DNA of 23,267 nucleotides from a virus, in the IMG/VR virus record IMGVR_UViG_3300025120_000580, positions 1-23,267 of that record. The stretch is one strand, 5' to 3'. The position numbers and the translations under genes are program-made. The notes beneath the pieces were generated by a model. It was not told the origin of the DNA and ran no database searches. It saw only the letters and a program-made list of their open reading frames with translations. Positions 2,825 through 22,079 of this stretch are shown here, one piece after another. Numbering within the stretch: position 1 is the stretch's first letter; the number at the start of each line of letters is the position of its first letter.

Positions 2825-3688
2825 ATGCCCGTTGTAAGCAAGAAGCAAGGAAAGTTTATGCAGGCGGTGGCTAATAGCCCTAAGTTTGCTAAGAAAGTAG
2901 GTGTTAAACAATCAATCGGACGAGAGTTCACTAAGGAGAAAGACATGAAAAAAGCAGTAAAGAAAATGAATATGGGTGGAATGGCAGATCGTGAAGGTCG
3001 CGCTATGGCGACTGGTCGTTATGCTAATGACCCTAGAATGATGGCGGATGCACGTGGTCGCGCTATGATGAAAAAAGGTGGTACAGTTAAAAAAATGAGA
3101 AAAGGTGGTAACACTTCTCGTATGAATGAGCTTGAAGAATTAGGTAGAGTTGATTCTGAAAAAGGCTATTCTGCTAAAGGCAAAAGAAATCTTAAAGATG
3201 AAAAAGCTCGTGTTGTAAGAGAAATTAAAAACAAAAAAGCTGGTGGTAAAGTAGGATATAAAGCTGGTGGTATGATGGCTGATAAAGAAGGTCGTGCTAT
3301 GGCAGCAGGTAAACTAAAAGGTTCTCCAGCTAAGATGGCAGATGCTAGAGGTAGAGCTATGGGTAAAGCTTTAGGATCTCCTAGAGTTGGAAAAGCAGCT
3401 AAACCAGCTAAAATGAAACGCCAAGGCGCTAATTCTAGACTTGATGAGTCATTAGGTATGAGAAGAGGCAAAGAAGCTACTAAATCTCAATCTATGAAAT
3501 CTCGTAGAGATGAATCTAGAGCTATGGCAACAGGTGGTATGCTAGCAAGAACCGGCGGTTCTTCAGCTAAAATGAAAGCTAAAGGCAAAGCTATGAAAAA
3601 AGGCGGGACTGTTAAAGGTCGCGGTAATGCATCTAAACGAGCAGACGGTATTGCTCAACAAGGCCACACACGCGGTCGTCACGTTTAA
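2825..3688 (+). CDS. Basic Gly-Gly-motif protein with internal duplication
   Basis: This is a 287-residue protein, very rich in Lys, Arg, Gly, Ala and Met. Residues 1-40 (SKKQGKFMQAVANSPKFAKK, then VGVKQSIGREF) form a block seen in other marine phage proteins. A module is duplicated: residues 50-86 and 148-184 share MAD(R/K)EGRAMA, then (K/R)MADARGRAM. Motifs of the type MKKGGTVK occur at 82-89 and 257-264. The end, DGIAQQGHTRGRHV, is shared in pattern with the protein at 6269. It starts two bases after the previous stop with only a distant AGGA, so it probably depends on coupling. The function is unknown; a virion-associated or DNA-binding role is inferred from charge and from sitting among neck genes. 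Confidence 0.72.
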   Translation: MPVVSKKQGKFMQAVANSPKFAKKVGVKQSIGREFTKEKDMKKAVKKMNMGGMADREGRAMATGRYANDPRMMADARGRAMMKKGGTVKKMRKGGNTSRMNELEELGRVDSEKGYSAKGKRNLKDEKARVVREIKNKKAGGKVGYKAGGMMADKEGRAMAAGKLKGSPAKMADARGRAMGKALGSPRVGKAAKPAKMKRQGANSRLDESLGMRRGKEATKSQSMKSRRDESRAMATGGMLARTGGSSAKMKAKGKAMKKGGTVKGRGNASKRADGIAQQGHTRGRHV

Positions 3689-3699
3689 GGGGAATTGAA

Positions 3700-4209
3700 A
3701 TGGTTGCAAGAGTAATACGAGAAGCAGTTAGATATGCTAAAAATAATGCCCCTAAAAGAGTTTCGGCAAAAAATAGTAGAAAGGCTGCAAACGAGGCAAA
3801 GAAAAGGGGCACTATTAGAAGAACTGAAGAAGTTAAACCTAAACGTAAACCACCTGTTAAAGATGTAGCAGCTAAAAAAGTGCCTAAATCAAAAGCAGCG
3901 AAAAAAAGTCTACTTAGAAAATATGGTGTTCCTGCTTCAATTATAGCCGGTGTATTAACAGGTTCTACTCTACTTAATAAAAAAGATAAAAAATCAGCAG
4001 CTAAAAAACCAGCAGTTAAAAAAGAAACACCAATGAAAAGAAGATTTAGAGCTGGACCAACAGCCGGATCAGGTTTAGGTAGTCAAAGAAGGTCAGGTAC
4101 TTTACGTGGAAAAAATGTGGTAGCCAATCCACCTAAGCGTAAAAATAAAGATACTGCTAAAAAACCTAGAAGACCGAGTCGTCCAAGTATGACAGGATTT
4201 AGAAAATAA
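3700..4209 (+). CDS. Lysine-rich histone-like protein with one hydrophobic segment
   Basis: This is a 169-residue protein with AAGGGGA just upstream of ATG 3700. It is Lys/Arg/Ala/Pro-rich, like bacterial H1-type proteins, over residues 15-73 and 93-169. A single hydrophobic stretch, YGVPASIIAGVLTGSTLL (75-92), breaks the basic region and could be a membrane or lipid-contacting helix. The N-terminus MVARVIREAV resembles that of the protein at 6269 (MVASVIKKVL), so the two may be distant relatives. No catalytic motif is seen. Possible roles are DNA condensation or a basic virion component with membrane contact during ejection; both are inference. Confidence 0.68.
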   Translation: MVARVIREAVRYAKNNAPKRVSAKNSRKAANEAKKRGTIRRTEEVKPKRKPPVKDVAAKKVPKSKAAKKSLLRKYGVPASIIAGVLTGSTLLNKKDKKSAAKKPAVKKETPMKRRFRAGPTAGSGLGSQRRSGTLRGKNVVANPPKRKNKDTAKKPRRPSRPSMTGFRK

Positions 4210-4332
4210 ATGAGGGCTTCTCGTGGAATGGGGGCTATACTACCAAGCAAATGCTGCAGTAAAGTATTATCACGCCCCTCTACTGTTAACAAAAAAAGGA
4301 CAACTAGATGTCGACCAAAAAAAAGAAGTTAA
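4210..4332 (+). CDS. 40-residue basic protein with RGMGA motif
   Basis: ATG 4210 starts at the last A of the previous TAA. The 40 residues open MRASRGMGAILPSK and end with a Lys/Arg-rich tail, CRPKKRS. The opening matches the start of the 53-residue protein at 4499 (MIKSRGMGRALPTK), and SRGMGA-x-x-P-x-K is a start I recognise from small cyanophage and marine podophage proteins. This protein-level match is the main support, because the ribosome binding site is weak. It overlaps the next gene by 25 bases in another frame. Three cysteines (15, 16, 34) are present. The C-terminal half may be degenerate, since it shares coding space with its neighbour. Confidence 0.58.
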   Translation: MRASRGMGAILPSKCCSKVLSRPSTVNKKRTTRCRPKKRS

Positions 4333-4502
4333 ACATTAAGAAAGCAATTAAAAAACCAGGGTCATTAAGAAAGTCTTTAGGTATTAAAAAAGGACAAAAG
4401 ATTCCGGCAAAAACATTAAACACTACTGCTAAAGCTCTGGGTAAATTAGGACAAAGAGCACGATTTGCTAAAACACTTAGAGGATTAGGTAGAGGAAGAT
4501 GA
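4308..4502 (+). CDS. Small basic phage protein, KKPGSLR / GQRARFAKTL family
   Basis: This is a 64-residue protein with AAGGA seven bases before ATG 4308. Its blocks IKKAIKKPGSLRKSLGI (9-25) and GKLGQRARFAKTLRGL (45-60) match a pattern I know from small proteins of T7-like cyanophages and marine phages (AIKKPGALR, then QRARLALTL); these carry no known function. Almost every third residue is Lys or Arg. It overlaps the 40-residue ORF upstream and its TGA overlaps the ATG of the next gene (ATGA at 4499-4502), so the three are read as one coupled block. Confidence 0.75.
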   Translation: MSTKKKKLNIKKAIKKPGSLRKSLGIKKGQKIPAKTLNTTAKALGKLGQRARFAKTLRGLGRGR

Positions 4503-4660
4503 TAAAGTCTAGAGGTATGGGAAGAGCACTTCCTACTAAATATAAAAAAGGTGGCACGGTAAAAGACGCGTGTTATCATAAAGTTAAAGCAAGTTATAAA
4601 GTTTTTCCAAGTGCTTATGCGTCTGGTGCTATTGCTAAATGTAGAAAGAAAGGCAAATAA
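4499..4660 (+). CDS. 53-residue basic protein, RGMG start and CYHKVK...FPSAYASG domain
   Basis: The 53 residues combine three recognisable blocks: the opening SRGMGRALPTK shared with the ORF at 4210, a Gly-Gly motif YKKGGTVK (15-22), and CYHKVKASYKVFPSAYASGA (25-44) followed by IAKCRKKGK. The last block is a conserved small domain in marine and cyanobacterial phages, and in related form in some large DNA viruses, where it often sits next to the RWFKEDW domain found in the following gene. Here the two are separate but joined by a TAATG overlap (4658-4662). Cys25 and Cys48 bracket the domain. The function is unknown. Confidence 0.75.
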   Translation: MIKSRGMGRALPTKYKKGGTVKDACYHKVKASYKVFPSAYASGAIAKCRKKGK

Positions 4661-5211
4661 TGGCAGTCCGCAAGACAGCTAAAGGAGCCGCTTTAAAACG
4701 TTGGTTCAAAGAAGATTGGAAAGATGTAAGCACCGGTAAAGCATGTGGAAGAAAAAAAGGTGATGGACGCAGTACACCTTATTGCCGACCCAGTAAACGA
4801 GTATCTAGTAAAACTCCAAAGACATCTGGAGAAATGACAGCAGCACAAAAGAAGTCTAGGATTGCTCAAAAGAAAAGTCTTGGACAACCAGCGGGTAAAC
4901 CACGTAGAGTGGCTTCCCTTACAAGGAGAAAGACAATGAAAAAAGGTGGTATGTTAAAAGCAGTACCCGAAGATAAGAAAAAAAGCTTAGGTAAATTACC
5001 TATGCCAGTCCGTAACAAAATGGGCTTTATGAAAGAGGGTGGAAAAGTTTTTAAATCTCATATGATGTATGATAAGAAAACAGGGAAAGCTGTAAAAGCG
5101 CCTACTAAAGCTAAACACTTAGAATTAAAAGATAAAGGCTATGGTCATACTAAACCTAAAAAAATGAAAGCAGGCGGTTTAGTAGATAGACAATATCTTA
5201 AAGGTAAATAA
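4660..5211 (+). CDS. Basic protein with DUF5872-like RWFKEDW domain and Gly-Gly motifs
   Basis: This is a 183-residue protein. Residues 13-57 (KRWFKEDWKDVSTGKACGRK, then STPYCRPSKRVSSKTPKT) resemble the DUF5872 family of phage and giant-virus proteins, as far as I can recall; Cys29 and Cys42 belong to it. The rest holds three Gly-Gly motifs (MKKGGMLK 93-100, MKEGGKVF 124-131, MKAGGLVD 169-176) and the C-terminal tag DRQYLKGK, which is identical to the end of the protein at 5887. The block GKLPMPVRNKMGFMKEGG (111-128) is also familiar from marine phages. It is very basic. No enzymatic motif is seen. It ends two bases before an adaptor-like gene. Confidence 0.75.
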   Translation: MAVRKTAKGAALKRWFKEDWKDVSTGKACGRKKGDGRSTPYCRPSKRVSSKTPKTSGEMTAAQKKSRIAQKKSLGQPAGKPRRVASLTRRKTMKKGGMLKAVPEDKKKSLGKLPMPVRNKMGFMKEGGKVFKSHMMYDKKTGKAVKAPTKAKHLELKDKGYGHTKPKKMKAGGLVDRQYLKGK

Positions 5212-5213
5212 TA

Positions 5214-5894
5214 ATGACTACAACAAATACGCATAACTTTAATTTAGATTTAAACTTACTGGTTGAAGAAGCATTTGAAAGATGCGGAGCAGAGTTAAGA
5301 ACAGGATATGATTTAAGAACAGCTACTCGTAGCTTAAACTTACTAACTATTGAATGGGCTAACCGAGGAATTAACTTATGGACAGTAGAACAAGGATCTA
5401 TTGCATTAGTTGCCGGGACAGCTACTTATAATTTGCCCGCGACTACCATCGACCTCATGAGCCAAGTCATAAGAACTGGGACGGGAACGACTCAGTCTGA
5501 CATAGCTATCACTAGGGTGTCAAATCCTACTTATGCCTCTATCCCAAGTAAGAATGACACGGGCAGACCGATACAAATTTATCTTGATCGACAAGCAGAA
5601 ATTCCAACAGTGACTATGTGGCCTATTCCTAATGACGCAAGTTATACCTTTGTGTATTGGTTTTTAAAAAGATTAGACGATGCAGGTACTGGTGTAAACA
5701 CACAGCATATACCGTTTAGATTTTTACCTTGTATGGTAGCTGGTCTTGCTTACTATTTATCTATAAAGATACCAGAAGCAGCACCAAGAATACCAATGTT
5801 AAAACAAGAATATGAAGAGCAGTGGCTACTCGCTTCTACTGAAGATCGAGAAAAAGCAACACTAACTATTTCACCAAGGAGTTCTTATGTCTGA
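5214..5894 (+). CDS. Head-tail adaptor-like protein (P22 gp4 / adaptor fold)
   Basis: This is a 226-residue protein with helices at both ends and a beta-rich middle (60-160). The blocks LNLLTIEWANRGINLWTVEQ (41-60), GTATYNLPATTIDLMSQVIR (68-87), then GRPIQIYLDRQ and MWPIPNDASYTFVYWFLKR, are those of a family placed with P22 gp4-like head-completion and neck proteins in marine podophages. The layout parallels the adaptor at 7264 (helix, P-x-D, beta hairpin, F/Y-Y-W/F strand, helix), so the two are probably ancient paralogues. Its role would be docking the tail to the portal ring. The middle (5401-5520, residues 63-103) has clearly higher G+C than the rest. The gp4-like name is moderately sure; a role in the neck is likely. 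Confidence 0.72.
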   Translation: MTTTNTHNFNLDLNLLVEEAFERCGAELRTGYDLRTATRSLNLLTIEWANRGINLWTVEQGSIALVAGTATYNLPATTIDLMSQVIRTGTGTTQSDIAITRVSNPTYASIPSKNDTGRPIQIYLDRQAEIPTVTMWPIPNDASYTFVYWFLKRLDDAGTGVNTQHIPFRFLPCMVAGLAYYLSIKIPEAAPRIPMLKQEYEEQWLLASTEDREKATLTISPRSSYV

Positions 5895-6267
5895 TAAAAA
5901 GAAAAAGAAATCAGGCGCTACACTTTCTGGAAGATATAGAGTGAGTGGTAAAAAACCATCAGCTAAAGATATAGCAGCACAAATAAGAGCAGACATCCGA
6001 GCGGGAATAAATTTAGAAGGAGATAATTACTTTGTTGAGCCGTATGTAAGTGGTTCAGCTTATAAAGGACCTAAAGGAAAACCACGAGCTGGAATAAATA
6101 GATATGGTATTCAAGGAGAAATTCGTCCCACAGAAAATACTTTTATTAGAGCCAGAGGAAGCATGGGCCCTAAAGGAGATAATAAACGAGGCGGGATTGA
6201 AGCAGGTGTTACATTCAAAGAAGGTGGAATGATAATTAAAGACAGGCAGTATTTAAAGGGGAAATAA
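5887..6267 (+). CDS. Small beta-rich protein with C-terminal DRQYLKGK tag
   Basis: This is a 126-residue protein overlapping the preceding gene by 8 bases, with AAGGAG ahead of ATG 5887. The N-terminus is Lys-rich; residues 22-40 form a helix; residues 66-110 alternate polar and non-polar residues (GINRYGIQGEIRPTENTFIR, then GGIEAGVTF), suggesting a beta meander, which recalls outer-membrane hairpins. It ends with the Gly-Gly motif FKEGGMIIK and the tag DRQYLKGK. The tag is identical in amino acids to the end of the protein at 4660, although six of eight codons differ. The function is unknown. Confidence 0.68.
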   Translation: MSDKKKKKSGATLSGRYRVSGKKPSAKDIAAQIRADIRAGINLEGDNYFVEPYVSGSAYKGPKGKPRAGINRYGIQGEIRPTENTFIRARGSMGPKGDNKRGGIEAGVTFKEGGMIIKDRQYLKGK

Positions 6268-6268
6268 G

Positions 6269-6697
6269 ATGGTTGCATCAGTAATAAAAAAAGTATTAAA
6301 GCCACTAACAAAAAAAATAGTGGATAAATTAAGAAAAAATCCAGAAGACCTTACTAGAGCAGAAAGAAAAGCTGTGCGCGATCACCAAAGATCAAGAGGT
6401 AAAACTTATATTAATAAAGATGGTATTAAAGTAACTAAATATCCATATATGGGGGAAGCGGGACAGATAGTTGCAAAAAGACCTAAATCAGGAAGTAAAA
6501 AATTTACAGCTGCTGAAATAAGAAAACAAAACGCACAAGAGAGAAATTTAGGAGCAAAAAACCTTCGAGAAAATCGAAAAGAAAGGACTACACCTTTAAC
6601 TGGAGAACTTGAATTTAAAAAAGGTGGTAGCGTAAAAGGTAAATGCAAAGTAGATGGTATTGCAGTACGTGGCAGAACTAAGGCTAAACATAAATAA
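6269..6697 (+). CDS. Small basic protein with C-terminal VDGIAVRGRTK tag
   Basis: This is a 142-residue protein with AAGGGG before ATG 6269. It opens MVASVIKKVLKPLTKKIVDK, similar to the start of the protein at 3700. The middle is helical and highly charged, with a block KTYINKDGIKVTKYPYMG (45-62) that looks like a short beta segment. It ends with the Gly-Gly motif FKKGGSVKGK (116-125) and VDGIAVRGRTKAKHK. The same ordered pair of motifs closes the protein at 2825, so both ends look like one portable module. Its TAA overlaps the ATG of the zinc-ribbon gene (TAATG). No function is known. Confidence 0.68.
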   Translation: MVASVIKKVLKPLTKKIVDKLRKNPEDLTRAERKAVRDHQRSRGKTYINKDGIKVTKYPYMGEAGQIVAKRPKSGSKKFTAAEIRKQNAQERNLGAKNLRENRKERTTPLTGELEFKKGGSVKGKCKVDGIAVRGRTKAKHK

Positions 6698-7065
6698 TGA
6701 GTAATAAATATACTACTAATAAGAACGCTATTGCAGATTGTGATGTCTGTGGATTTCAATTTAAACTAAAGCAATTAAAAAGTTTATTTGTAAGAGAAAC
6801 AAAAACAAATATACTAGCGTGTCCAGAATGTTGGAACCCTGACCAGCCACAGAATTTACAAGGAATGTATCCTGTAGATGATCCACAAGCTGTAAGGAAT
6901 CCAAGACCTGACCAAAGTTTTAATGACAATAACAGAACTGGGTCAAGAGATATACAATGGGGATGGGAACCTGTAGGTGGAGCTAGACCCCCAGCTAATG
7001 AATTTACACCTAATAAATTAGTAAGTTCAGGAGCCGTAGGAACTGTTACAATAACAATAACTTAG
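6697..7065 (+). CDS. Zinc-ribbon phage protein
   Basis: This is a 122-residue protein. Two CxxC pairs, CDVC (15-18) and CPEC (42-45), 27 residues apart, would bind one zinc ion as a zinc ribbon. The sequence around them (DVCGFQFKLKQLKSLF, then ACPECWNPDQPQ) and the following DDPQAVRNPRPDQS are typical of a conserved small protein located between neck genes in many podophages. The C-terminal third is different: GWEPVGG, then a beta-strand run GAVGTVTITIT at the very end, which looks like a virion-exposed or strand-exchange tail. The role is not established; being among neck genes suggests an assembly or structural part rather than a transcription factor. Confidence 0.75.
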   Translation: MSNKYTTNKNAIADCDVCGFQFKLKQLKSLFVRETKTNILACPECWNPDQPQNLQGMYPVDDPQAVRNPRPDQSFNDNNRTGSRDIQWGWEPVGGARPPANEFTPNKLVSSGAVGTVTITIT

Positions 7066-7074
7066 GAGAAAAAA

Positions 7075-7254
7075 ATGTCTAAAGAAAATCAAGAAAGAAA
7101 GCCTAAATTTAAAGGCATATATACACAACCTCAAGACGTACCTGTACCTCACGTTGCTGGTTACCCAGAAAAAAATGTTAAAACATCTGGTGTAGTAACT
7201 CGTGGTAATGGTGCAGCTACTAAAGGTACTAAAGCTCGCGGTCCATTAGCTTAA
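7075..7254 (+). CDS. 59-residue phage protein with GAATKGTKARGP C-terminal motif
   Basis: TAGGAGA precedes ATG 7075 by a suitable distance and the frame runs 59 residues: a basic start (SKENQERKPKFKG), a Pro-rich middle (QPQDVPVPHVAGYPEKNVKT) and the ending TRGNGAATKGTKARGPLA. The ending G-x-GAA-x-KG-x-K-x-RGP-x is a signature I recall from short proteins next to adaptor genes in marine and cyanobacterial podophages. The function is unknown. The gene fills the space between the zinc-ribbon gene and the adaptor gene, with 9 bases on either side. Confidence 0.75.
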   Translation: MSKENQERKPKFKGIYTQPQDVPVPHVAGYPEKNVKTSGVVTRGNGAATKGTKARGPLA

Positions 7255-7263
7255 GGATAAACA

Positions 7264-7926
7264 ATGACTTACGCAGAATTAGTGGCTCAGATAGAGTCTT
7301 ATACAGAAAATGAATATTCTACAGTAGATGTAAATACATTTATAACTCAAGCTGAAAACAGAATATTTAACTCTGTTAATCTACCTGATCTTAGAAGAAA
7401 TGATACGGGTACAATTAGTTTAGGTAACAAATACTTAAACGTACCAGATGATTGGTTAGCTACTTATAGTTTAGCTGTTATTGATAATACGACAAACGAA
7501 TATACTTTTCTTTTAAATAAAGACGTTAATTTTATTAGAGAATCTTTCCCTGATACTGATGTCGCACATTATGGGAAACCTAAATACTATGCTGTCTTTG
7601 ATGATACAACTTTTATACTCGGTCCTACACCTGATACAGGTTATGGTGCTGAGCTTCATTACTTTTTTTATCCTGAATCTATTACTACTGCCGCTAGTGG
7701 TCAGTCTTGGCTGGGTGATAATTACTCAACCGCTTTACTTTATGGGTCGTTGTTGGAAGCGAATACTTACCTAATGACCGATGCAGAGAAAATGAGTATG
7801 CTAGATAAACGATACCAAGAAGCAATGATAGAACTATTAGGATTAGGTGAGGGTAAAAATACTCGTGATTCTTATAGAAGTGGACAATCTAGAATACCTG
7901 TTAAAGGTAGTAGAGGTCCTGCATAA
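7264..7926 (+). CDS. Tail adaptor protein (phage SU10-type adaptor)
   Basis: This is a 220-residue protein. It follows the family pattern closely: helical start TYAELVAQIESYTEN, the block FITQAENRIFNSVNLPDLRR (26-45), the strand GTISLGNKYLNVPDDWLATY, then LLNKDVNFIRESFP, GKPKYYAVFDDTTFILGPTP (about 103-122), and helices with WLGDNYSTALLYGSLLEANT. Adaptors of this type form a ring below the portal and receive the nozzle and the fibres. The C-terminal tail (SYRSGQSRIPVKGSRGPA) is basic, as usual for these proteins. Its length is normal for the family. Its stop overlaps the start of the next gene (TAATG). A divergent second copy of the fold is at 5214. Confidence 0.82.
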   Translation: MTYAELVAQIESYTENEYSTVDVNTFITQAENRIFNSVNLPDLRRNDTGTISLGNKYLNVPDDWLATYSLAVIDNTTNEYTFLLNKDVNFIRESFPDTDVAHYGKPKYYAVFDDTTFILGPTPDTGYGAELHYFFYPESITTAASGQSWLGDNYSTALLYGSLLEANTYLMTDAEKMSMLDKRYQEAMIELLGLGEGKNTRDSYRSGQSRIPVKGSRGPA

Positions 7927-8354
7927 TGGCAGCGATAATACAAGGATTAACAAACACATTTATTGCTAAATCATTAGCTGGCGATATAGATTTTGATACT
8001 GATACTTTTAAAATAGCTTTATATACTAATGATGCTACTTTAGATGCTTCAACTTCGGCTTATACTACAACTAATGAAGTAGTAGGAACAGGATATGTAG
8101 CTGGAGGAAATACTTTAACAGGAGCAACAGTAACACAAGATGATGATGCTGACGTTGTATATATCACATTTGATTCTCCAACTACTTGGACAGGGACATT
8201 TTCAGTTAGAGGTGCTTTAATATATGATAGTAGCTCTAGTAATTATAGTATATGTGTATTGGATTTTGGAGAGATAAAAACTATTACTTCTCAAACTTTA
8301 ACCGTTACACTACCTGAAAATACAACAACAACAGCACTTATTCGATTTGAATAG
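7926..8354 (+). CDS. Beta-structural virion protein, paralogue of the one at 9795
   Basis: This is a 142-residue protein, all beta by pattern. Blocks DTFKIALYTNDATLDAST, TTNEVVGTGYVAGGNTLTGA, then VRGALIYDSS and CVLDFGEIKTITS are a pattern repeatedly found in marine phage structural modules. The protein at 9795 has the same order of blocks (YKMVLAKAAS, TNEIVAAGGYVTGGRSL, KYAVIRNSTG, LLCFCQL), so the two are paralogues separated by the methyltransferase fusion. A plausible role is a tail or baseplate-like decoration or fibre accessory. The exact position in the virion is not known. Confidence 0.7.
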   Translation: MAAIIQGLTNTFIAKSLAGDIDFDTDTFKIALYTNDATLDASTSAYTTTNEVVGTGYVAGGNTLTGATVTQDDDADVVYITFDSPTTWTGTFSVRGALIYDSSSSNYSICVLDFGEIKTITSQTLTVTLPENTTTTALIRFE

Positions 8355-8365
8355 AAAGGAATAAA

Positions 8366-9793
8366 ATGGCAGGTTTAATAGAGGGGATGGTTGGAAAAGC
8401 CCCGGCAGTAAAAGTATCACATAAAAGACCGTTAGAAAAAGATTTATATAAAAAAGTATGGGAAATGCCAGAATATAGACACGTTTCTCCTGGTGAAAAA
8501 ATAGCTCACATATTTTTAGAGCAAGCCAAACCTAAAGCAGGATCAAGTGTTATAGATTTAGGTTGTGGCACAGGACGTGGAGGATTAAATCTTGCGTTTT
8601 TTGGAGGAATGGATGTAACATTGGTAGACTTTGCTCCTAACTGTTTAGATGCAGATATAGTCCCAATGTTAAAAACACAAAAACATCTACTTAGATTTAT
8701 AGAAGCAGATTTATCTCAACCACTACCTGTTAAAGCAGCGTATGGCTATTGCACAGATGTGATGGAGCATATTAGACCTCATCATGTAGATAAAGTATTA
8801 GACAATTGTTTAGATGCAGCACAACATGTATTTTTTGCTATTTCTACTGTAGATGATGTGCTAGGTGAAAAAGTAGGACATAAATTACACTTAAGTGTTT
8901 TTCCTTATAAGTGGTGGTTAAAGAAGTTTAGAGATAGAAAATGTATTATCCATTGGTCAAAAGATATTGATGGAGCATGTTTGTTTTATGTTAGTTCGTG
9001 GGCAGATGGAAAAGATGTAGTTAATCTTGGACAACTAAATACAGACTTAGATATATTAAAAGAAAATGTAACACATAACATTAAACAAGAATTTTTACAG
9101 GTTCAACCTTATCCTACAAACGATTTAGAAGTTATGATAGTAGGAGGGGGACCTTCTTTAGAAGGACAGCTTGAAAAAATAAAGCAATTAAGAGCAAATG
9201 GTGTTAAACTTATAACAATTAATGGCGCTTATAAATGGTGTATTGACAATGGATTAACACCATCTGCAATGGTTATGGTTGATGCTCGTGAATTTAATGC
9301 TAGATTTGTTCAACCAGTAGTAAAAGATTGTAAATATTTCATAGCATCACAGTGTCATCCTAGTGTATTTAACGGTTTACCAAAAGATAAAACTTATATT
9401 TGGCATACACAGGCAGAAGAACATAGTGAAGTATTAGCACAACAATATGAAACTTGGCACCCTATACCAGGAGGTTCTACAGTTTTATTAAGGGCTATAC
9501 CTTTATTTAGAATGTTAGGTTTTAAACGGTTTCATCTATTTGGATGTGATTCATGTTTAGAAAAAAATAAGCATCACGCATATAAACAAACAGAAAATGA
9601 TGGACAGTTAGTAGTTCCTGTAAACGTGGGCGGGAAAATATTTGACTGTAATCCTTGGATGGTGTCACAAGCTCAAGAGTTTATTGATCTCATTAGAATG
9701 ATGGGCGATGAACTTGAGTTAGAGATATATGGAGGGTTACTACATCATATTTTAGAAACCGGTGCGTCATACACCGATATTAAGGAGATTTAA
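8366..9793 (+). CDS. Fusion of a SAM-dependent methyltransferase with a DUF115/MptE-like domain
   Basis: This is a 475-residue protein with AAAGGA ahead of ATG 8366. Residues about 45-215 are a class I methyltransferase: motif I VIDLGCGTGRGG (62-73), the acidic end of strand beta-2 at Asp88 (VTLVDF), and EADLSQPLP, then CTDVMEHI (129-136) as motifs II-IV. Residues about 250-465 match the DUF115 (Maf/MptE-like) fold: VMIVGGGPSLEGQLEKIKQL (257-276), ITINGAYKWCIDNGLTP, then MVMVDAR, a Gly-rich PGGSTVLLRA and FHLFGCDSC. DUF115 relatives include glycosyl- and diphospho-transferases, notably the Maf enzymes of flagellin glycosylation. The gene lies between virion genes, so modification of a virion surface or of the host envelope is plausible but inferred. 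Substrates cannot be told. Confidence 0.85.
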   Translation: MAGLIEGMVGKAPAVKVSHKRPLEKDLYKKVWEMPEYRHVSPGEKIAHIFLEQAKPKAGSSVIDLGCGTGRGGLNLAFFGGMDVTLVDFAPNCLDADIVPMLKTQKHLLRFIEADLSQPLPVKAAYGYCTDVMEHIRPHHVDKVLDNCLDAAQHVFFAISTVDDVLGEKVGHKLHLSVFPYKWWLKKFRDRKCIIHWSKDIDGACLFYVSSWADGKDVVNLGQLNTDLDILKENVTHNIKQEFLQVQPYPTNDLEVMIVGGGPSLEGQLEKIKQLRANGVKLITINGAYKWCIDNGLTPSAMVMVDAREFNARFVQPVVKDCKYFIASQCHPSVFNGLPKDKTYIWHTQAEEHSEVLAQQYETWHPIPGGSTVLLRAIPLFRMLGFKRFHLFGCDSCLEKNKHHAYKQTENDGQLVVPVNVGGKIFDCNPWMVSQAQEFIDLIRMMGDELELEIYGGLLHHILETGASYTDIKEI

Positions 9794-9794
9794 C

Positions 9795-10256: not shown

Positions 10257-10266
10257 GGAGTAGTCA

Positions 10267-10854: not shown

Positions 10855-12933
10855 ATGTCAACATATTCAAATTTGTCAGTAGAACTAATAGGAACCGGCG
10901 AACAGTCAGGTACGTGGGGTACAACAACCAATACTAACTTAGGTACTGCAATGGAGGAAGCTATTGTTGGTACTGTAGACCAAGCAGTTACTACCGGAAA
11001 TACAACACTTACTTTAAATACTGCTTCTAACGCTACACAAGTAGTTCGTCACTTACGTCTTAATCTTACAGGAAGTGCGGGGGGCGTTGGTAATTTAATT
11101 ATACCTACTACCGCTGCAGGTGGTGCTAATACATTTCAAAAAAATTATATAGTTAATAATGCTTCAGATACTGCTATAACTGTTAAAACTGCTTCTGGCA
11201 CAGGAGTATTAGTTCCAGCTGGTAAATCAGCATGCGTATATGCAGATGGTACAAATGTTGATTATGCAATTGATTATCTTAGTGGCACAATTCTTTCAAG
11301 TGATGTAGACATTAATGGTGGTTCAATTGATGGCACTGCGATCGGAGCAGCTACACCTAGCACAGGCTCATTTACAACACTCGCAGCTTCGGGCGCAGTT
11401 TCAGGTACAGGGTTTACAGCACGTTTTGCTTCACCCGGACCAATTGGTAATACAACAGAGAGTACGGGTAAATTTACTACTCTTGAAGCTACAGGCAACG
11501 TTACACTTGGTGATGCTTCGGCAGATGAAGTAACTCATAATGCAAAAACCGTTAACATTCCAAATGATTTAATATACTCTGGTACTGGAGCAATAACTCA
11601 AGCAGTAGGGACTACAGTCCAAAGACCAGGTTCACCAGCAGAAGGAATGTTTAGATACAATTCTACAACAGATGAATTTGAAGGATATGCAGCTAGTGGA
11701 TGGGGTTCATTTGGAGGAGGAGGAGGTTTATCTTGGCAGTCAACTATAGTTACTGGAGCAACTCATACAGCAGTAGCTAACGAAGGTTACTGGATTAATA
11801 CAACATCTAATGGTTGTGTTATTACTTTACCTGCTTCTGCAACTGTTGGTGATCAAATTATCTTCAAAGATTATCTTAGAACGTGGAACATTAATACTAT
11901 TCAGATAGACTCAAATGGATTAAACTTTCAAGGACAACCAGATACTTTTTTAGTTGAATACAATCTAAATGGTCAAGTGGTTAATATTGTTTATTCTGGT
12001 GCATCTCAAGGTTGGACTCCTATAAATACTTCAGTAATAGAAGCAGTCCCAAGTGCTGCAGCAGAGGGTCTTTTCTCTAATGGTAATGTTGCTGGTACTG
12101 GTACTACTACTATAACAAACAAGGTAGGAACTACTGGAATTGTAGCTTCAGATATTTTACAAGCAGGTTTACATCAAACATACAAAACAGCTACTCGCTT
12201 TGGCTCTACTGGGCAAGGTATTTTACTATTTGGTGGTGCTTATGGAGCTTACGTATCATCTAATGTAAACTTAGTTTCTAATACAGGATTAATAGCAACT
12301 GCTTCTTCAGGTGTTGGTACTGGAAGACTAGCCGCACAAGCTGTTCCTTATGGAAGTTCTGGTTTAGCTTTAATGGCTTATGGTTATGATGGGTCTTCTT
12401 ATTTAAATACTATAAATCTTATAAGTGCTGGAGGGTCTCTTGCAAGTGATTCTTCAGGTGTAGGAACAGCATCTAATGAAAAAGCTGGAGCATCATATGG
12501 AGGAGATAAAGCTATTATAGGTTTTGGGAACTGTACTACTGGTAAGATTTCAGTAACAAATTTAGTGTCTAACTCTGGTGTAATATCAGCTGATGTTACA
12601 GGAGTGGGTACTGCAAGACAAGGTCTAGCAGCTGCTGGCTATGGTACTGATAAAGCTATATTTGCATATGGAGATACTGGAAGTACCACATCAATATCTA
12701 ATCTTGTTAATAGTTCTGGCGTTGTAGCTACAGATACTACAGGGGTTGGTACTGCTAGAAAGCATCTTGGTGCTAATACCTTTGGCTCTGATAAAGCAAT
12801 TTTTGCTTTTGGTAATGGTGGTGGAGAACTTTCTATATCAAATTTAGTATCTAATTCAGGTGTAGTAGCTACAGATACTGCAGGAGTTGGTACTCCAAGA
12901 AGTCAACTACCTGGTCTTGGCATTGGTACATAA
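10855..12933 (+). CDS. Tail fibre / receptor-binding protein with 48-residue C-terminal repeats
   Basis: This is a 692-residue protein, rich in Gly, Thr, Ser and Ala. The N-terminus (SNLSVELIGTGEQSGTWG, residues 5-22, then TNTNLGTAMEEAIVG) is a start common to marine podophage fibres and is likely the virion-attachment part. Residues 150-225 hold fibre-shaft modules (GAATPSTGSFTTLAASG; ESTGKFTTLEATGNVTLGD). Residues 255-290 (QRPGSPAEGMFRYNSTTDEF) are a knot seen in fibre shafts. From about residue 450 to the end come five repeats of 47-49 residues whose anchor VGT falls at 487, 536, 584, 631 and 678, with DKAIFAFG and NLVSNSGVVATDT as other landmarks; this may be a beta-propeller-like or kelch-like head. 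It probably binds the host receptor. The last repeat ends abruptly at LPGLGIGT. Confidence 0.83.
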   Translation: MSTYSNLSVELIGTGEQSGTWGTTTNTNLGTAMEEAIVGTVDQAVTTGNTTLTLNTASNATQVVRHLRLNLTGSAGGVGNLIIPTTAAGGANTFQKNYIVNNASDTAITVKTASGTGVLVPAGKSACVYADGTNVDYAIDYLSGTILSSDVDINGGSIDGTAIGAATPSTGSFTTLAASGAVSGTGFTARFASPGPIGNTTESTGKFTTLEATGNVTLGDASADEVTHNAKTVNIPNDLIYSGTGAITQAVGTTVQRPGSPAEGMFRYNSTTDEFEGYAASGWGSFGGGGGLSWQSTIVTGATHTAVANEGYWINTTSNGCVITLPASATVGDQIIFKDYLRTWNINTIQIDSNGLNFQGQPDTFLVEYNLNGQVVNIVYSGASQGWTPINTSVIEAVPSAAAEGLFSNGNVAGTGTTTITNKVGTTGIVASDILQAGLHQTYKTATRFGSTGQGILLFGGAYGAYVSSNVNLVSNTGLIATASSGVGTGRLAAQAVPYGSSGLALMAYGYDGSSYLNTINLISAGGSLASDSSGVGTASNEKAGASYGGDKAIIGFGNCTTGKISVTNLVSNSGVISADVTGVGTARQGLAAAGYGTDKAIFAYGDTGSTTSISNLVNSSGVVATDTTGVGTARKHLGANTFGSDKAIFAFGNGGGELSISNLVSNSGVVATDTAGVGTPRSQLPGLGIGT

Positions 12934-16231: not shown

Positions 16232-16232
16232 T

Positions 16233-16415
16233 ATGGCACACGTTGTACAACCAAAAGCACCTAATCTAACTCTTCCTACAGTGGAATATAGTGAAGATGC
16301 ACAGAACCAACTACAAAATCAATTAAGATTGTATTTTGCTCAATTAGATAGAGCACATTTAGATGAGATTACTAATTTGCATACAAACAACACGATGCAT
16401 TGGATGGGATTATAA
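16233..16415 (+). CDS. 60-residue conserved phage protein
   Basis: This is a short frame with AAGGGG five bases before ATG 16233. The sequence APNLTLPTVEYSEDAQNQLQ then NQLRLYFAQLDRAHLDE matches in pattern small proteins (LP-x-P/T-x-x-Y, then NxLRLYFxQLD) that sit right behind the nozzle gene in many podophages. It is mostly a single amphipathic helix. The function is unknown; a cap or connector for nozzle or fibre is possible. Its TAA overlaps the next ATG (TAATG). Confidence 0.75.
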   Translation: MAHVVQPKAPNLTLPTVEYSEDAQNQLQNQLRLYFAQLDRAHLDEITNLHTNNTMHWMGL

Positions 16416-16765
16416 TGGCTGGAGAATTTCAAAACTTAACAGGTAAGAAACTAGCAAGGGCAGCTGTAACTGCTACGATGGCTATTGTGTATGAGACTCC
16501 TGCAAATACAAGAGCTTATATAAAAGACATTATGGTGACTAATCATAGTGGCGCATCGGGTGCTGCTGGACTTATTAGTATTCATATTGTTCAAGCAGGG
16601 GGCGCTGCAACGTTTGGTAATGTTATTATTGATGAGTATTCAATAGCTAAACAAGAGTATTTACATTGGTCGGGACTACAGATAACAGACCCCGGAGATA
16701 CCATACAAGTAGTGTCAGATGCAACTAATCTTTCGATTACAATTTCAGGGGCCGAAGCAGTATAA
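16415..16765 (+). CDS. Small beta-sandwich virion protein
   Basis: This is a 116-residue protein. ATG 16415 overlaps the previous stop; an ATG 15 bases upstream (16400) is inside the former gene and less likely. The pattern is all beta: AIVYETPANTRAYIKDIMVTN, then GLISIHIVQAG, EYLHWSGLQITDPGDTIQVV and LSITISGAEAV. This architecture (transformation of a T-P-A-N-T-R-A-Y-I-K-D-I loop into a sandwich) is frequent in small tail or head decoration proteins of marine phages. It is followed by a 49-base gap with no gene, a TATATATAGG stretch and an AGGGA ahead of the next gene. No specific role is assigned. Confidence 0.7.
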   Translation: MAGEFQNLTGKKLARAAVTATMAIVYETPANTRAYIKDIMVTNHSGASGAAGLISIHIVQAGGAATFGNVIIDEYSIAKQEYLHWSGLQITDPGDTIQVVSDATNLSITISGAEAV

Positions 16766-16814
16766 AACGGTTTATATATAGGCATATACATGATATTATT
16801 AGGGAATAAATAAG

Positions 16815-19097
16815 ATGAGTTATATAGACGAACATATAGACTATCTAGCAGGGCATGAAGGAATTAAAGGAGCTTCAGAAAGAGTAGAAGACTCAACCAA
16901 AACTGCTGCACCTTATGGTTTAGATAATCCGCCAATTTCAAGAACAAAGAAAGAATCGGATAGGGCATATGTAAAAAGAGTTTTGGAGCATTTTGAAGCA
17001 AAAGCAAGGACTACTTTAGGAGATGCTTATGATAATGCCCCAACTGGTGTAAAACGTGCAATATTGGATAGTTATTATAATTCAGGTCGTTTATATCCAG
17101 GACAGATTGCTAGTTTAAAAGGCACTAATGGAGTTTCAGATTATGTAGGATTTGCTAAAAATACATTAGATATTGTTTCTGCTAATGATTCTAAAACTAA
17201 CAGTGCAGGGATACTAAAAGGATTAGCTAATCGTAAAGCAGCAACCTATAATTTAATGGCTAATGAAGTTGAAGGACTGTCTCCAATAACGGGGGGCGAA
17301 TTAATAGATGTAGAAGGAAAGGCTCAATTAATTTATAACACAGGCAAAGACCCATATACTTATAATTTTAATAAACCTTTACATAGTAAAAGTAAAGCGG
17401 GACCATTAAATGTAAAAGCTCAACCACCAGGAAAAGCACCAGGCGTTAACCCTATGGAAGCGCAGCTACAAGCAGCTGAGAATGAAAAAGCACCATTAAT
17501 ACCTCCTTTTGGAGCACCTAAGCCAAGAGAAGAAGTTATTACAGAAAGAGAAACGGTAACAGAAAAAGGACCAGGATTTTACGACAGATTTACTTCTGGA
17601 ATAAAAGAACTTTTACCATTTAATAAAGGTGGCAACGTGGACGAAATGACACTAAATACAATTGATGTAATAGAACCTGACATGTACAAAAACTATATGA
17701 TGCAGGAAGCTGCAAGGCGCAGTATGATGCAAGGCAATGAGGAAGAACGAATGGCAGATTATGATTATGCACGGGACGAAGCTGAAGACTATCCTTATTT
17801 ATACCCTCGTAGAGCTAGAAGTGTAACTCGCCCTCCAATGCAAGCAGCTCAAAGAATGATGGGTGGCTTTGCTCAAGGTGGTGTTGTTGATCAAGCTCAA
17901 GGTTTAGCTTCTTTAGGTCGTGGTGGGGACTCAACTCTAGTACACATGCAACCACAAGAAGTAGCAGGTTTACAGCAACTTGCTCAAGCTAATGGCACTT
18001 CACTTACACGTAACCCAATGACAGGATACCCTGAAGCATTTAGCTTAGGTGGAATGTTTAAAGCAGCCTTACCAATAGCAGCTGGATACTTTACTGGAGG
18101 AGCAGCAACCCCATTTTTAGGAGCAGGTACAGCGGCTAGTTCTGCTATAACAGCAGGTGCATTGACAGGTGCAGGTGTTGCCGCAGCTACAGGAGATGAC
18201 CCAATTATGGGGGCAGTTTCTGGTGGTATGGGTGGTTATAGTGGTATGGGATTAGAAAGTGCTGTGGCAAATATGCCAGCTGCTACAGTTCCTATGAGCG
18301 GAAATATGGGGCAACAAATAGCTGCAGACGCAGCTTATACTGGTTCATTAGGTGGCATGCAAGTTGGGACACCAACTGCAAATATTGGGGCAGGAGGAAC
18401 AGGAATGAATATAGGAGGAGGAGGTTTCGGTGCTCAAGGTTCAGCTGTAAATGATCCTATGATGTTAGCAGGGTCTAAACCAGGGGGCACTATAATGCAA
18501 GATAGCCCGTTAAGCACTTTTGACAGAGCTATTGCAGGAGCTAAAACAGCTTCAGGTACTCCAGCTAGAGAAACCGGCATATATTCGGTAAGACCGGACG
18601 GCACAAGGATTAGTACACAAATGCAAAAAGCAGTAGCAGGAACTACCCCACAAGCACTTATGAAATTAGGTTCTCCAGTAGCAAGTTTAGGACTAGGCGG
18701 ATTAGAAGCAAGTGACTTTATGGTTAAACCTGATTTCAATGACCCAAGAGACAAGTACGATCCAAGAAGCAGATTAGATTTAAACAGAGATACAGGAATA
18801 GATGAAGCATTGAGTCGTGATACAGGCTTAAGGCTGTTAGCTAAAGGTGGATATTTAAAAGGCCCAGGTGATGGCATGAGTGATGACATTCCTGCAACTA
18901 TAAACGGCGAACAACCAGCAGCTTTAGCAGATGGAGAATTTGTAGTACCAGCAGATGTAGTCAGCCATTTAGGTAATGGCTCTTCTGAAGCTGGATCAAA
19001 ACAATTATATGCAATGATGGATAGGATAAGAAAAGCTAGAACAGGTAAAAAGTCTCAAGGAAAAGAGATTAAACCTGGAAAGTATATGCCTAGATGA
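16815..19097 (+). CDS. Virion protein with N-terminal lysozyme-like domain (ejection protein candidate)
   Basis: This is a 760-residue protein. Residues 1-155 resemble phage lysozymes of the GH24 type: LAGHEGIKG with Glu15 as likely catalytic acid, APTGVKRAILDSYYNSGRLY (75-94), and the typical end GILKGLANRKAATYNLM (132-148). The match is distant and the catalytic triad cannot be confirmed. A Pro-rich linker (195-245) follows, then Gly-Gly motifs (FNKGGNVD 269-276, FAQGGVVD 352-359), the block HMQPQEVAGLQQLAQANG (377-394), a glycine-zipper region (415-475) fit to enter membranes, and a conserved C-terminal domain (682-760: GPGDGMSDDIPATING, then ALADGEFVVPADVVSHLGNG). A virion-borne enzyme that opens peptidoglycan during DNA entry is the best inference; endolysin is the alternative. 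Confidence 0.75.
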   Translation: MSYIDEHIDYLAGHEGIKGASERVEDSTKTAAPYGLDNPPISRTKKESDRAYVKRVLEHFEAKARTTLGDAYDNAPTGVKRAILDSYYNSGRLYPGQIASLKGTNGVSDYVGFAKNTLDIVSANDSKTNSAGILKGLANRKAATYNLMANEVEGLSPITGGELIDVEGKAQLIYNTGKDPYTYNFNKPLHSKSKAGPLNVKAQPPGKAPGVNPMEAQLQAAENEKAPLIPPFGAPKPREEVITERETVTEKGPGFYDRFTSGIKELLPFNKGGNVDEMTLNTIDVIEPDMYKNYMMQEAARRSMMQGNEEERMADYDYARDEAEDYPYLYPRRARSVTRPPMQAAQRMMGGFAQGGVVDQAQGLASLGRGGDSTLVHMQPQEVAGLQQLAQANGTSLTRNPMTGYPEAFSLGGMFKAALPIAAGYFTGGAATPFLGAGTAASSAITAGALTGAGVAAATGDDPIMGAVSGGMGGYSGMGLESAVANMPAATVPMSGNMGQQIAADAAYTGSLGGMQVGTPTANIGAGGTGMNIGGGGFGAQGSAVNDPMMLAGSKPGGTIMQDSPLSTFDRAIAGAKTASGTPARETGIYSVRPDGTRISTQMQKAVAGTTPQALMKLGSPVASLGLGGLEASDFMVKPDFNDPRDKYDPRSRLDLNRDTGIDEALSRDTGLRLLAKGGYLKGPGDGMSDDIPATINGEQPAALADGEFVVPADVVSHLGNGSSEAGSKQLYAMMDRIRKARTGKKSQGKEIKPGKYMPR

Positions 19098-19504
19098 ACC
19101 AAGTACATACGGTAGCTTCAGACAAAGTTTATCAAGTATGGAATGAAGTTGAAGATTACTTAAAAGCTTCGATTGAAACAAATACAGGGGACTGTACATT
19201 AGAGCAGTTAAAAGGACTATTAGTATCAAACGCACAAACTCTGTTAGTTGCAATGAATAATGATAAAATAGTAGGTGCAATGACAGTAGAATTTATAAAT
19301 TATCCTAATGAAAGGGTAATGTTTATTACCGCTTTAGGTGGTAAAGGAATAGTAAATAACACAACTTTTAGCCAAGTAGAAAAATGGGCTAAAATGCAAG
19401 GAGCTACAAAATCAGCCGCTTGGGCTCAAGAAGCACAAGCAAGGTTATACAAAAATAAAGCAGGATTTACTACAATGAGATATGTTATGGAGAAAAAATT
19501 ATGA
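19094..19504 (+). CDS. GNAT-fold protein
   Basis: This is a 136-residue protein that overlaps the lysozyme-like gene by four bases (ATGA). The order of segments is that of a small GNAT acetyltransferase: helices (11-46), strand LLVAMNNDKIVGAMTVEFI (50-68), strand ERVMFITALGG (73-83), helix VEKWAKMQGATK, and the typical end ARLYKNKAGFTTMRYVMEKKL split over 116-136. The acetyl-CoA loop is not canonical (ALGGKGIVNN). Such small GNAT-like proteins sit among ejection-protein genes in T7-like marine podophages, where they may have a structural rather than catalytic role. The fold is likely; the activity is not shown. Confidence 0.7.
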   Translation: MNQVHTVASDKVYQVWNEVEDYLKASIETNTGDCTLEQLKGLLVSNAQTLLVAMNNDKIVGAMTVEFINYPNERVMFITALGGKGIVNNTTFSQVEKWAKMQGATKSAAWAQEAQARLYKNKAGFTTMRYVMEKKL

Positions 19505-20610
19505 GCGGTGGTGGCGGAGGCGGACCTTCAACAACTACAGGAACTACTTATTCCTCTAATCTTCCGGAATACGCTAAGCCGTATTACGAAGAACTTTTAA
19601 AACAAACCGGTAAGCAAGTTTATAAAACTGATGCTACGGGAAAAGCTATTGGGGTTCAAGAATTTACTCCTTATACAGGTGACCGTTTAGCAGGTTTTAC
19701 TGACCAACAAAAAACTTTACAATCTCAAGTAGCAGGATTAACTCCTACGGCAGCAGGATACACTACAGGTGCCGCAGGCACAGGCACGGCAACTGATTTA
19801 GGATTAGGTACCGCAGCTACTGGAATAGGTCGAGCTTTAGGTTATGACGCTGCTGCAATAGAAGATTTAAGTATGGCAGATAGAGCTGAGTTTGATGCAG
19901 CTGCTGCAACTAAATATATGGACCCTTACCAAGCTAATGTCACAGACATGCTCAAAGAAGAAGCTAGGCGTGATGCAGCAATTGCTAAATCTGGTCGAGC
20001 AATGGGTGCGATAGGTCGCGGAACTTTTGAGGGGGGTCGACAGGCTTTAATGGAAGGACAAGCAGATAGAGACTTACAAACACAATTAGCTAAAATTGGC
20101 TACCAAGGCGAACAAGATGCCTTTAGATTTGCAGCAGACCAATTTGAAAGAGACCAAGCTCGAGATTTATCAGCAGATCAAGCTAACCTACAAGCTGCTA
20201 TGGAAGCACGAAGACTTGCTCAAAGCGGCGAACAATTTGAAGCTGACTTAGATAGAGGTTTAGGACTTGCTGGATTAGAAGCTGGATTAGCAGGAGCTAA
20301 AACTCAAGCTGCTATAGCCGGCGATCAACGATTAACTGAATTAAAAACACTATTAGCACAAACAACTGATGCTGAAGAAGCTCAAAGATTAAATCAAGAA
20401 ATTGCAAGTCTTGATTATCAACAATTTAAAGAAGCCGAAGATTATGAAAAACAACAACTACAATATCTTAGTGATATTCTTCGAGGTAATGCAGGTGCAT
20501 TAGGTTCTACTAATGTTCAATACGCAGCAGCTCCTAGTTTAGCATCGCAGATTGGTGGTGGTGTAGCAGGTATTGCAGGTCTTTATGGTGCTCTTGGAGG
20601 GCTTAGCTAA
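19501..20610 (+). CDS. Ala/Gln-rich internal virion (ejection) protein
   Basis: This is a 369-residue protein joined to the GNAT gene by an ATGA overlap. The N-terminal SGGGGGGPSTTTGTTYSSNL and LPEYAKPYYEELLKQTGKQV (21-40) are a conserved opening for ejection proteins of marine podophages. Residues 130-330 are almost pure helix, rich in Ala, Gln, Glu and Asp, with a GRAMGAIGRGTFEGGRQALM turn (164-183). The last 25 residues (SLASQIGGGVAGIAGLYGAL) are a glycine-zipper hydrophobic end that could insert in a membrane. By analogy with T7 gp14-gp16 it may be one of the proteins ejected to form a trans-envelope channel. The analogy is by context and composition, not by sequence identity. Confidence 0.72.
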   Translation: MSGGGGGGPSTTTGTTYSSNLPEYAKPYYEELLKQTGKQVYKTDATGKAIGVQEFTPYTGDRLAGFTDQQKTLQSQVAGLTPTAAGYTTGAAGTGTATDLGLGTAATGIGRALGYDAAAIEDLSMADRAEFDAAAATKYMDPYQANVTDMLKEEARRDAAIAKSGRAMGAIGRGTFEGGRQALMEGQADRDLQTQLAKIGYQGEQDAFRFAADQFERDQARDLSADQANLQAAMEARRLAQSGEQFEADLDRGLGLAGLEAGLAGAKTQAAIAGDQRLTELKTLLAQTTDAEEAQRLNQEIASLDYQQFKEAEDYEKQQLQYLSDILRGNAGALGSTNVQYAAAPSLASQIGGGVAGIAGLYGALGGLS

Positions 20611-22079
20611 TGAGCATTAAAAATATAATTCAACAAGAAAATGATTTGCAGGAAATGTCTCCGCGATCATTAGCTAACTATCTTAATAATCCTACTGGTC
20701 AATATAATCCTTACCTTGTCGCAGGAGAGTTACAGCGCAAAGAAGCATTTGCTCAAAGACAAATGACAGAAGCTCCTCAAGAAACTGTGGTAGATGAGTT
20801 AGTAGCTCAAGCTATGCCTATGGGTGGAATGCCTATGGGTGGAATGCCTATGGGTGGAATGCCCATGCCTAGACCAGAAGAAGTTATGGTATCTGACACT
20901 ATTACAGAAACTGGGATTGCTAATTTACCTGCACCCAACATAGGACAGAACTATGCAGGTGGTGGTATTGTTGAATATGATAATGGTGGAGAAGTGGGCT
21001 TTTTTGATAAAATAAAAGACTTTGGTCGTGAAAGATTAAGTGGATTAGAAGCAGGACTCGATGAACGTACTGCGCGACACCGAGAACAGATGAGAATATA
21101 CGAAGAAACTGGCGAGTTTCCTCCAATGTCTGAACAAGATTTAGACGACGCTTTGTCCGTTAGTGGTCTTGGTGGTATAGCAAAAGTAGGCGGAAAAGCT
21201 ATGCCCTACATAAAAGATACTGCTAAAAAAGCTGCAGATTATATAAAAAACAAAATTAAACCTAGCCCTAAAAAATTAAATAAGAAGCAGAAAGCTCAAA
21301 AGATAAAAGATGATAAAGCTAAAGCTAAAGCCGCTAAAGAAGCACCTAAAAAAGGTCCTCTTACACAAAAAGTTATTGAGGGTGCCAAATATGTAGGCCC
21401 TAGAATAGGTCCTGGAATAAGAGGATTAGGTAGAGGGCTTAAAAATTATCCAGTAGAGGCTGGACTGGGGGCGTATGGCGCATATAAAGCTTATGATTAT
21501 TTTGATCCCTTTGGTACTAAAGAAGAAGCAGCGAGACTAAAAGAAGAAAAAACTAGACAAACTCTTGCAGATCAAGCAAAAAGAGAGGCAGACGAAGCAG
21601 CATACAACGCAAAAGTACAGGCTGAATTAGACGCAGCACAAGCAGCAAGAGATAGACAACGAGAAAAAGAAGCGTATCTTGCCCTTGCTTTAGGTGGTGC
21701 TAAAACCATGGCGGGACAATCTCCGTTTGCTTTAGCTAACATAGGTGAAGGTCTAGGCGCAGGTGTAGGTGCATTAGCAGCTTACGATCAAAACGAAATG
21801 GAACGTATGGCCGCAAGTCAAGCAGCGAGCGCAAAAGCTCAACAAGATATGAGAATAGCTTTAATGGATTATGAAATGAAATATTATGAGCGTGTAAATA
21901 AATTAGCTGATAATCAAATTTATAATGCCCGACTAAAACAAATTGAAGACAACGAAGAAGGTTTAGTAGATGAAGATGTGGCTAAACTAAAAGAAGCACT
22001 TTTAATTGAATTTGCGGGTCTTGATCCTCAATCTTATATTGCTAATATAAACGGTCAACAATTTACTGCAGCGGAGTAA
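20610..22079 (+). CDS. Internal virion (ejection) protein with MPMGG repeats
   Basis: This is a 489-residue protein that starts on the A of the former TAA (TAATG). Residues 8-66 form a conserved N-terminal block (SPRSLANYLNNPTGQYNPYL, then AGELQRKEAFAQRQM). Three MPMGG units follow (69-83). The Gly-Gly segment YAGGGIVEYDNGGEVGF comes next at about 116-131, then a charged helix, a hydrophobic AVGG-type stretch, a Lys-rich section (206-246), a Gly-rich segment KYVGPRIGPGIRGLGRGLKN, and a long Ala/Glu/Lys coiled coil (295-350 and 392-450). GGAKTMAGQSPFALANIGEGLG then AGVGALAAYDQNE (about 363-397) resembles blocks in other marine phage ejection proteins. It is probably a virion-internal protein delivered with DNA. 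There is no enzyme motif. Confidence 0.72.
   Translation: MSIKNIIQQENDLQEMSPRSLANYLNNPTGQYNPYLVAGELQRKEAFAQRQMTEAPQETVVDELVAQAMPMGGMPMGGMPMGGMPMPRPEEVMVSDTITETGIANLPAPNIGQNYAGGGIVEYDNGGEVGFFDKIKDFGRERLSGLEAGLDERTARHREQMRIYEETGEFPPMSEQDLDDALSVSGLGGIAKVGGKAMPYIKDTAKKAADYIKNKIKPSPKKLNKKQKAQKIKDDKAKAKAAKEAPKKGPLTQKVIEGAKYVGPRIGPGIRGLGRGLKNYPVEAGLGAYGAYKAYDYFDPFGTKEEAARLKEEKTRQTLADQAKREADEAAYNAKVQAELDAAQAARDRQREKEAYLALALGGAKTMAGQSPFALANIGEGLGAGVGALAAYDQNEMERMAASQAASAKAQQDMRIALMDYEMKYYERVNKLADNQIYNARLKQIEDNEEGLVDEDVAKLKEALLIEFAGLDPQSYIANINGQQFTAAE
20814..20870 (+). repeat. 15-bp tandem repeat coding for MPMGG
   Basis: ATGCCTATGGGTGGA occurs three times in perfect tandem (20814-20828, 20829-20843, 20844-20858), followed by a partial unit ATGCCCATGCCT. 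The frame is kept. Identical units point to recent slippage expansion; copy number may vary between related phages. Confidence 0.88.

Follow-up and report, generated by a model that had tools for sequence, protein, structure and literature searches.

The record IMGVR_UViG_3300025120_000580, from an uncultured virus, was analysed as a single stretch of 23,267 bases, called the window in what follows. Its gene content fits the plan of P22-like short-tailed phages. Small basic proteins of its head block end in one of two conserved peptides, which we call the R-tag (proteins 2825 and 6269) and the D-tag (4660 and 5887), usually preceded by a Gly-Gly (GG) joint; a third C-terminal tail, the G-tail, ends protein 7075. 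The R-tag is C-terminal, mostly at a fixed distance from the stop codon, sits on many unrelated protein bodies, is conserved as a peptide and is encoded in the head gene block. We describe the tags and the joint, and weigh the proposal that R- and D-tags may load or dock their proteins into the virion.

Conserved C-terminal tags

The R-tag has the form KKGGxV..ADGIAxRGxTxGxxx-stop; in both window copies [V/A]DGIAxxGxT is followed by five residues. The D-tag, K[EA]GG..DRQYLKGK-stop, contains the only 8-mer common to two different window proteins (DRQYLKGK), for which 6 of 8 codons differ between 4660 and 5887, every difference being silent. Features of the window are collected in Table 1.

Scanning for DRQYLKGK gave 19 DNA stretches, several with two or three copies, each copy on a different protein, so that one contig can have D-tags on up to three different proteins. 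A scan with the R-tag core gave at least 120 stretches, to which the window and the D-tag contigs were added for counting. Among the matches listed there are at least 204 C-terminal R-tags on at least 120 contigs; 191 of 204 keep the same distance to the stop codon, the protein ending four residues after the 12-residue core. With the tags cut off, the R-tagged bodies listed form about 98 clusters by BLAST (E 1e-3); two to four differently bodied R-tagged proteins are encoded on each of 55 contigs. Because the tag pattern served to find the contigs, part of the core conservation follows from the search itself; this does not hold for position, multiplicity, the upstream GG, the neighbourhood or the tagless homologues.

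Table 1. Tags, GG joints and proteins carrying them in the window
Feature	Coordinates	Strand	Basis or remark
287-aa basic head-block protein 2825	2825..3688	+	N-terminal 46-aa family phrog_16759; weaker phrog_25121 'virion structural protein'
Internal GG joint MKKGGTVK of 2825	3068..3091	+	sequence
R-tag of 2825, MKKGGTVKGRGNASKRADGIAQQGHTRGRHV-stop	3593..3688	+	sequence, homologues
GG joint and C-terminal Cys domain of 4499, YKKGGTVKDACYHKVKASYKVFPSAYASGAIAKCRKKGK-stop	4541..4660	+	conserved domain
Internal GG joint MKKGGMLK of 4660 (DUF5872 protein)	4936..4959	+	
Internal GG joint MKEGGKVF of 4660	5029..5052	+	
D-tag of 4660, MKAGGLVDRQYLKGK-stop	5164..5211	+	
D-tag of 5887, FKEGGMIIKDRQYLKGK-stop	6214..6267	+	
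R-tag of 6269, FKKGGSVKGKCKVDGIAVRGRTKAKHK-stop	6614..6697	+	predicted unstructured
G-tail of 7075, ...KTSGVVTRGNGAATKGTKARGPLA-stop	7180..7254	+	without GG joint
GG motif FNKGGNVD in 16815	17619..17642	+	
GG motif FAQGGVVD in 16815	17868..17891	+	
LAKGGYLK joint and conserved C-terminal domain of 16815 (GPGDGMSDDIPA...)	18837..19097	+	
Tandem GG motif YAGGGIVEYDNGGEV in 20610	20952..20996	+	

When unrelated tagged proteins from one contig are compared, their cores show a residue identity of 0.81, and identical core residues use the same codon in 48% of cases, against 36% for independent codon choice. Because codons diverge at 81% residue identity, it is the peptide and not the DNA that has been kept; the tags are thus copies of long standing, maintained by selection at the peptide level. 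Divergence of silent sites rules out a DNA-level element or a recent duplication for the tags. Tags on unrelated proteins are slightly more alike within a contig (0.809) than between contigs (0.774), a value reached by 0 of 2000 permutations, as would be expected if tags follow a common partner. In the 6269 family the invariant columns, besides the initial Met, are those of the tag and joint, which are predicted to be unstructured in the AlphaFold model; the models of 20610 and 6269 have predicted template modelling (pTM) scores of 0.27 and 0.24 and offer no fold worth comparing.

Modularity

Tags are gained and lost as units. Three pairs of 2288-type bodies are 93-96% identical with and without a tag: L165:4386 (107 aa, tagged) and L194:11556 (84 aa, untagged), L168:3286 and L206:1420, and L195:10044 and L191:2644. 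In each tagged member the tag is added past the last residues of the body. What is apparently the same short body start, MGAISIAKKLLKGK, leads to a D-tag in L109 and to an R-tag in L118.

The G-tail, KTSGxxxRGxGAATKGxxxRGPxA-stop, ends small proteins with variable N-termini (7075 and its homologues), usually one per contig, and keeps the same distance to the stop codon in 74 of 81. LPxxVRNxMGFM, the stretch ahead of MKEGGKVF in 4660, recurs before C-terminal tags of other proteins; it and HMMYDKKTGKAVKAPTKAKHLELKDKGYGHTK are further short segments common to different small proteins (L104, L106, L115 and L116). To judge from such shared segments, the small proteins look as if they had been assembled from a short list of modules. 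In L258 two neighbouring tag genes overlap (11438-12076 and 12027-12353), and DNA that codes for a tag is read in a second frame to give the upstream end (MVLP[NS]A...) of the following open frame; the true starts may lie further in.

Other parts of these proteins have relatives elsewhere. The N-terminus of 2825 is homologous to that of gp204 of the phiKZ-like phage PA7. Protein 4660 matches DUF5872 (PF19197) with 53 bits against a curated cut-off of 27.5; DUF5872 is also mentioned for an algal virus in the literature. The Cys domain of 4499 is found in 365 phage records, mostly of cyanomyoviruses, one of them annotated as a structural protein. This domain (CYHKVK; 4499-5211 region) occurs in many T4-like cyanomyoviruses, and in one a DUF5872-like region stands beside it.

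The Gly-Gly joint

A preliminary description of the window had reported one short motif in seven otherwise unrelated proteins, and all of its peptides are found in the proteins named. The strict form, [FMYL]xxGGx[VIL][KDE], has 10 matches in 6 window proteins; MKEGGKVF and FKEGGMIIK miss it and fit a looser form, which also takes in YDNGGEVG (20610) and MATGGML (2825), absent from that description. Comparison with shuffled proteins, which it had proposed, bears out the enrichment: per-protein shuffles give a mean of 0.31 strict matches (maximum 5), 0 of 2000 reaching 10, and shuffles keeping every GG give a mean of 0.65 (maximum 4).

The pattern had been fitted by eye after the data were seen, and was therefore tried on proteins not used for its definition. 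The 1104 roughly non-redundant proteins of held-out relatives contain 66 strict matches; shuffling gives 8.4 (maximum 16), or 13.7 when every GG is kept in place (maximum 22), so that the enrichment is 5-8 times. An origin by chance or composition is ruled out by these shuffles, in the window and in the relatives. T7 and P22 have no strict match.

The recurrence is thus real, and the idea of a single motif has to be given up: the GG is a joint common to several different, longer conserved modules. It stands before at least four of them, which rules out one uniform short linear motif. Ahead of a tag the GG usually lies within [MYF][KA][KS]GG, and in 197 of 200 cases the joint is 6-21 residues, mostly 7-12, before the conserved Asp of the R-tag. 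The joint looks like a linker or hinge, a role it fits because its spacing is variable and it is predicted to be unstructured. A double-glycine leader peptide was considered and rejected, since the joints before tags are near the C-terminus and do not close an N-terminal leader, and the joint of 4499 precedes a conserved domain.

Distribution and gene neighbourhood

On contigs with a recognisable capsid gene, every tag (74 of 74) follows that gene on its strand, 1.6-5.9 kb downstream (median 3.0 kb), and 134 of 139 tags lie upstream of the 5214-type (SU10-type) adaptor gene. A hallmark gene of the lineage is present in 102 of 103 contigs. Seven of eight long records (50-87 kb) contain the tag pattern, each in one short cluster; a reversed-pattern control gave 0 matches in the long records.

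A search of 50,697 phage records, cultured relatives included, gave no R- or D-tag; at this collection size a local positive control showed queries with both tags to be detectable. The G-tail was likewise not found in this collection, the detectability control covering the R- and D-tag only. Bacterial genomes gave nine pattern matches: one, on L244, a contig binned with a gammaproteobacterium, is of this phage type, and the other eight are without a tagged protein. Literature searches with the tag peptide strings returned nothing relevant, which does not prove absence.

The phage group carrying the tags is one of uncultured aquatic short-tailed phages. By capsid and adaptor, the nearest cultured relatives are HTVC023P-type pelagiphages, Roseobacter phages CRP-901/902, Planktothrix phage Pag-Yong1 and phage DSL-LC04; the capsid protein of the relatives matches the Phage_capsid_4 profile. 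Gene order in the long records is terminase, portal, scaffold-like protein, capsid protein, small-protein block and adaptors, followed by tail genes, 14042-type, 16815-type, 19501-type and 20610-type genes and a giant gene. In the window, 5214 and 7264 are two SU10-type adaptor proteins, 14042 is a large virion structural protein (phrog_3287), 19501 is an ejection protein (phrog_4287) and a very large gene begins after 22,079. This giant gene is truncated in the window, ending in a tandem peptide repeat, EAPRPETEV (about 23120-23267). The frame at 60-752, ahead of a cement-like gene, has no family match, and 8366-9793, within the tail gene block, encodes a protein with a weak methyltransferase match. 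Curli-type secretion genes are discussed in a paper on HTVC023P-type phages.

GG motifs of the ejection proteins

Copies of the motif in 16815 and 20610 form a class separate from the tags. Taken whole, 16815 matches nothing in PHROGs at 0.01 or in Pfam at 0.1. Its third motif, LAKGGYLK, opens the C-terminal domain (18846-19097, residues about 678-760), which recurs in many of 80 viral contigs retained, mostly 73-80% identical; in many contigs sharing this domain little else of the protein aligns. In 20610, whose family has about 20% identity, most invariant columns fall within the tandem motif; prediction places this motif in an unstructured linker, with a helical domain on the N-terminal side and long helices beyond. 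As far as these alignments indicate, the ejection-protein motifs are strongly constrained sites marking other junctions, and they may or may not share the partner of the tags.

Proposed function and alternatives

Our preferred reading, which we hold to be about as likely as not, is that the R- and D-tags are C-terminal virion-loading or docking tags. In such a system the GG would be a flexible joint in front of conserved end modules, and the tags of small basic head-block proteins would act as a free-end address. Each tag would have one putative binding partner in its own phage, most probably within the prohead, where the scaffold, the portal and the inner surface of the capsid are candidates; small accessory proteins, in a varying assortment, would thereby be brought into the particle. 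The joint of the ejection proteins would lie between domains. The suggestion in the preliminary description of a docking peptide or packaging signal fits the surroundings of the tags, with the correction that its carrier would be the tag after the GG and not the GG itself. A further step, about which we are more doubtful, is that R-tag, D-tag and perhaps the RGxGAATKG tail are interchangeable address tags, each recognised by its own docking site on the head.

Several points weigh against a loading function. The nearest cultured relatives manage without R- and D-tags, and no cultured carrier of the tags was found in the collection searched. Some R-tag-like copies are internal, 70 of 246 lying more than 12 residues from the end. 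The homogenisation of tags within contigs is small, and the structure models were built on shallow alignments. Binding to a partner, the identity of that partner as a head protein and packaging of the tagged proteins are steps that we infer.

Among other explanations the least unlikely is a role in binding nucleic acid: as basic, RGKTRGK-like tails, the tags would condense or coat DNA and have no specific protein partner. Tags and bodies are indeed rich in Lys and Arg, and the proteins are small and encoded in the head block. However, the D-tag is hardly basic, and the fixed non-basic residues (D, G, I/C, A, G, T), whose fixity is partly due to the construction of the pattern search, together with the fixed stop distance ask for specific recognition.

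Somewhat less probable is that the modules were spread by duplication and shuffling in a recombinogenic gene block and share ancestry only, with no common docking function. The excess of same codons over chance does show some shared descent, and other segments (LPxxVRNxMGFM, HMMYDKKTG...) are also common to different proteins; yet the peptide was kept while silent sites were largely randomised, and its placement is exactly C-terminal on many bodies and in many lineages.

We think it improbable that the GG is a processing site at which a phage or host protease cuts, removing the C-terminal tag in maturation. A GG does stand ahead of 197 of 200 tags, cleavage of targeting peptides is known from T4 (PMC9026906, PMC7411985), and a protease could be host-encoded or unrecognised. 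Against this, the residue after GG and the spacing vary, no separate head protease was found among ten head-block proteins tested in one relative, and the matches of the capsid protein to protease families cover only the C-terminal part of those long profiles. The double-glycine or prohead-protease site offered in the preliminary description is not supported either, on the same grounds and also because the conserved part lies downstream of the GG and would be lost on cleavage.

It is very improbable that xxGGI[IV]AF, the motif of the ejection proteins, mimics the mobile loop of GroES and binds host GroEL. The likeness extends over four or five residues only, and the R- and D-tag joints have no hydrophobic triplet. 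In its favour, a predicted unstructured linker holds the motif, a phage GroES gene stands before the scaffold-like gene in cultured relatives, and the GroES of Pag-Yong1 has KTAGGII where its mobile loop lies.

If the loading reading of R- and D-tags is true, gain of a tag of about 23 residues would recruit a new accessory protein into the virion, a modular cargo-loading system. The tags would then also provide a sequence rule for spotting otherwise unannotatable small virion proteins in this uncultured phage group, and possibly a route for loading chosen proteins into aquatic phage particles.

Comparison with known systems

HTVC023P-type pelagiphages, CRP-901/902, Pag-Yong1 and DSL-LC04 share homologous capsid and adaptor proteins and the gene order with the tagged phages, and small proteins similar to 2288 and to the DUF5872 part of 4660 are encoded by HTVC023P; the R- and D-tags are what these phages lack. 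A structural protein of cyanomyovirus S-B68 (QBP06184) has both the C-terminal Cys domain (CYHKVK) of 4499 and a DUF5872-like region, but fused in one protein and without a KKGG joint of the 4499 form.

Encapsulin cargo-loading peptides are short peptides that load cargo into a shell of the HK97 fold (PMC8346489, PMC11866011). As with the tags, a short conserved peptide ends the protein; encapsulins, however, are host compartments with usually one cargo, whereas here many small phage proteins are tagged, and the likeness concerns the shortness and end position of the peptides.

The T4 capsid-targeting sequence (CTS) is a peptide common to the internal proteins IPI, IPII, IPIII and Alt and has been proposed to serve the incorporation of various proteins into the capsid (PMC9026906, PMC7411985). 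Both it and the window tags are short peptides on divergent small basic head or head-block proteins, borne by several unrelated proteins of one phage. The T4 peptide is N-terminal, about 10 residues long and cut off by gp21, whereas the window tags are C-terminal and end at the stop codon, differ in sequence and come in more than one kind per phage. The tags are not members of the T4 CTS family; if they do load proteins, short head-targeting peptides would have arisen C-terminally as well as N-terminally.

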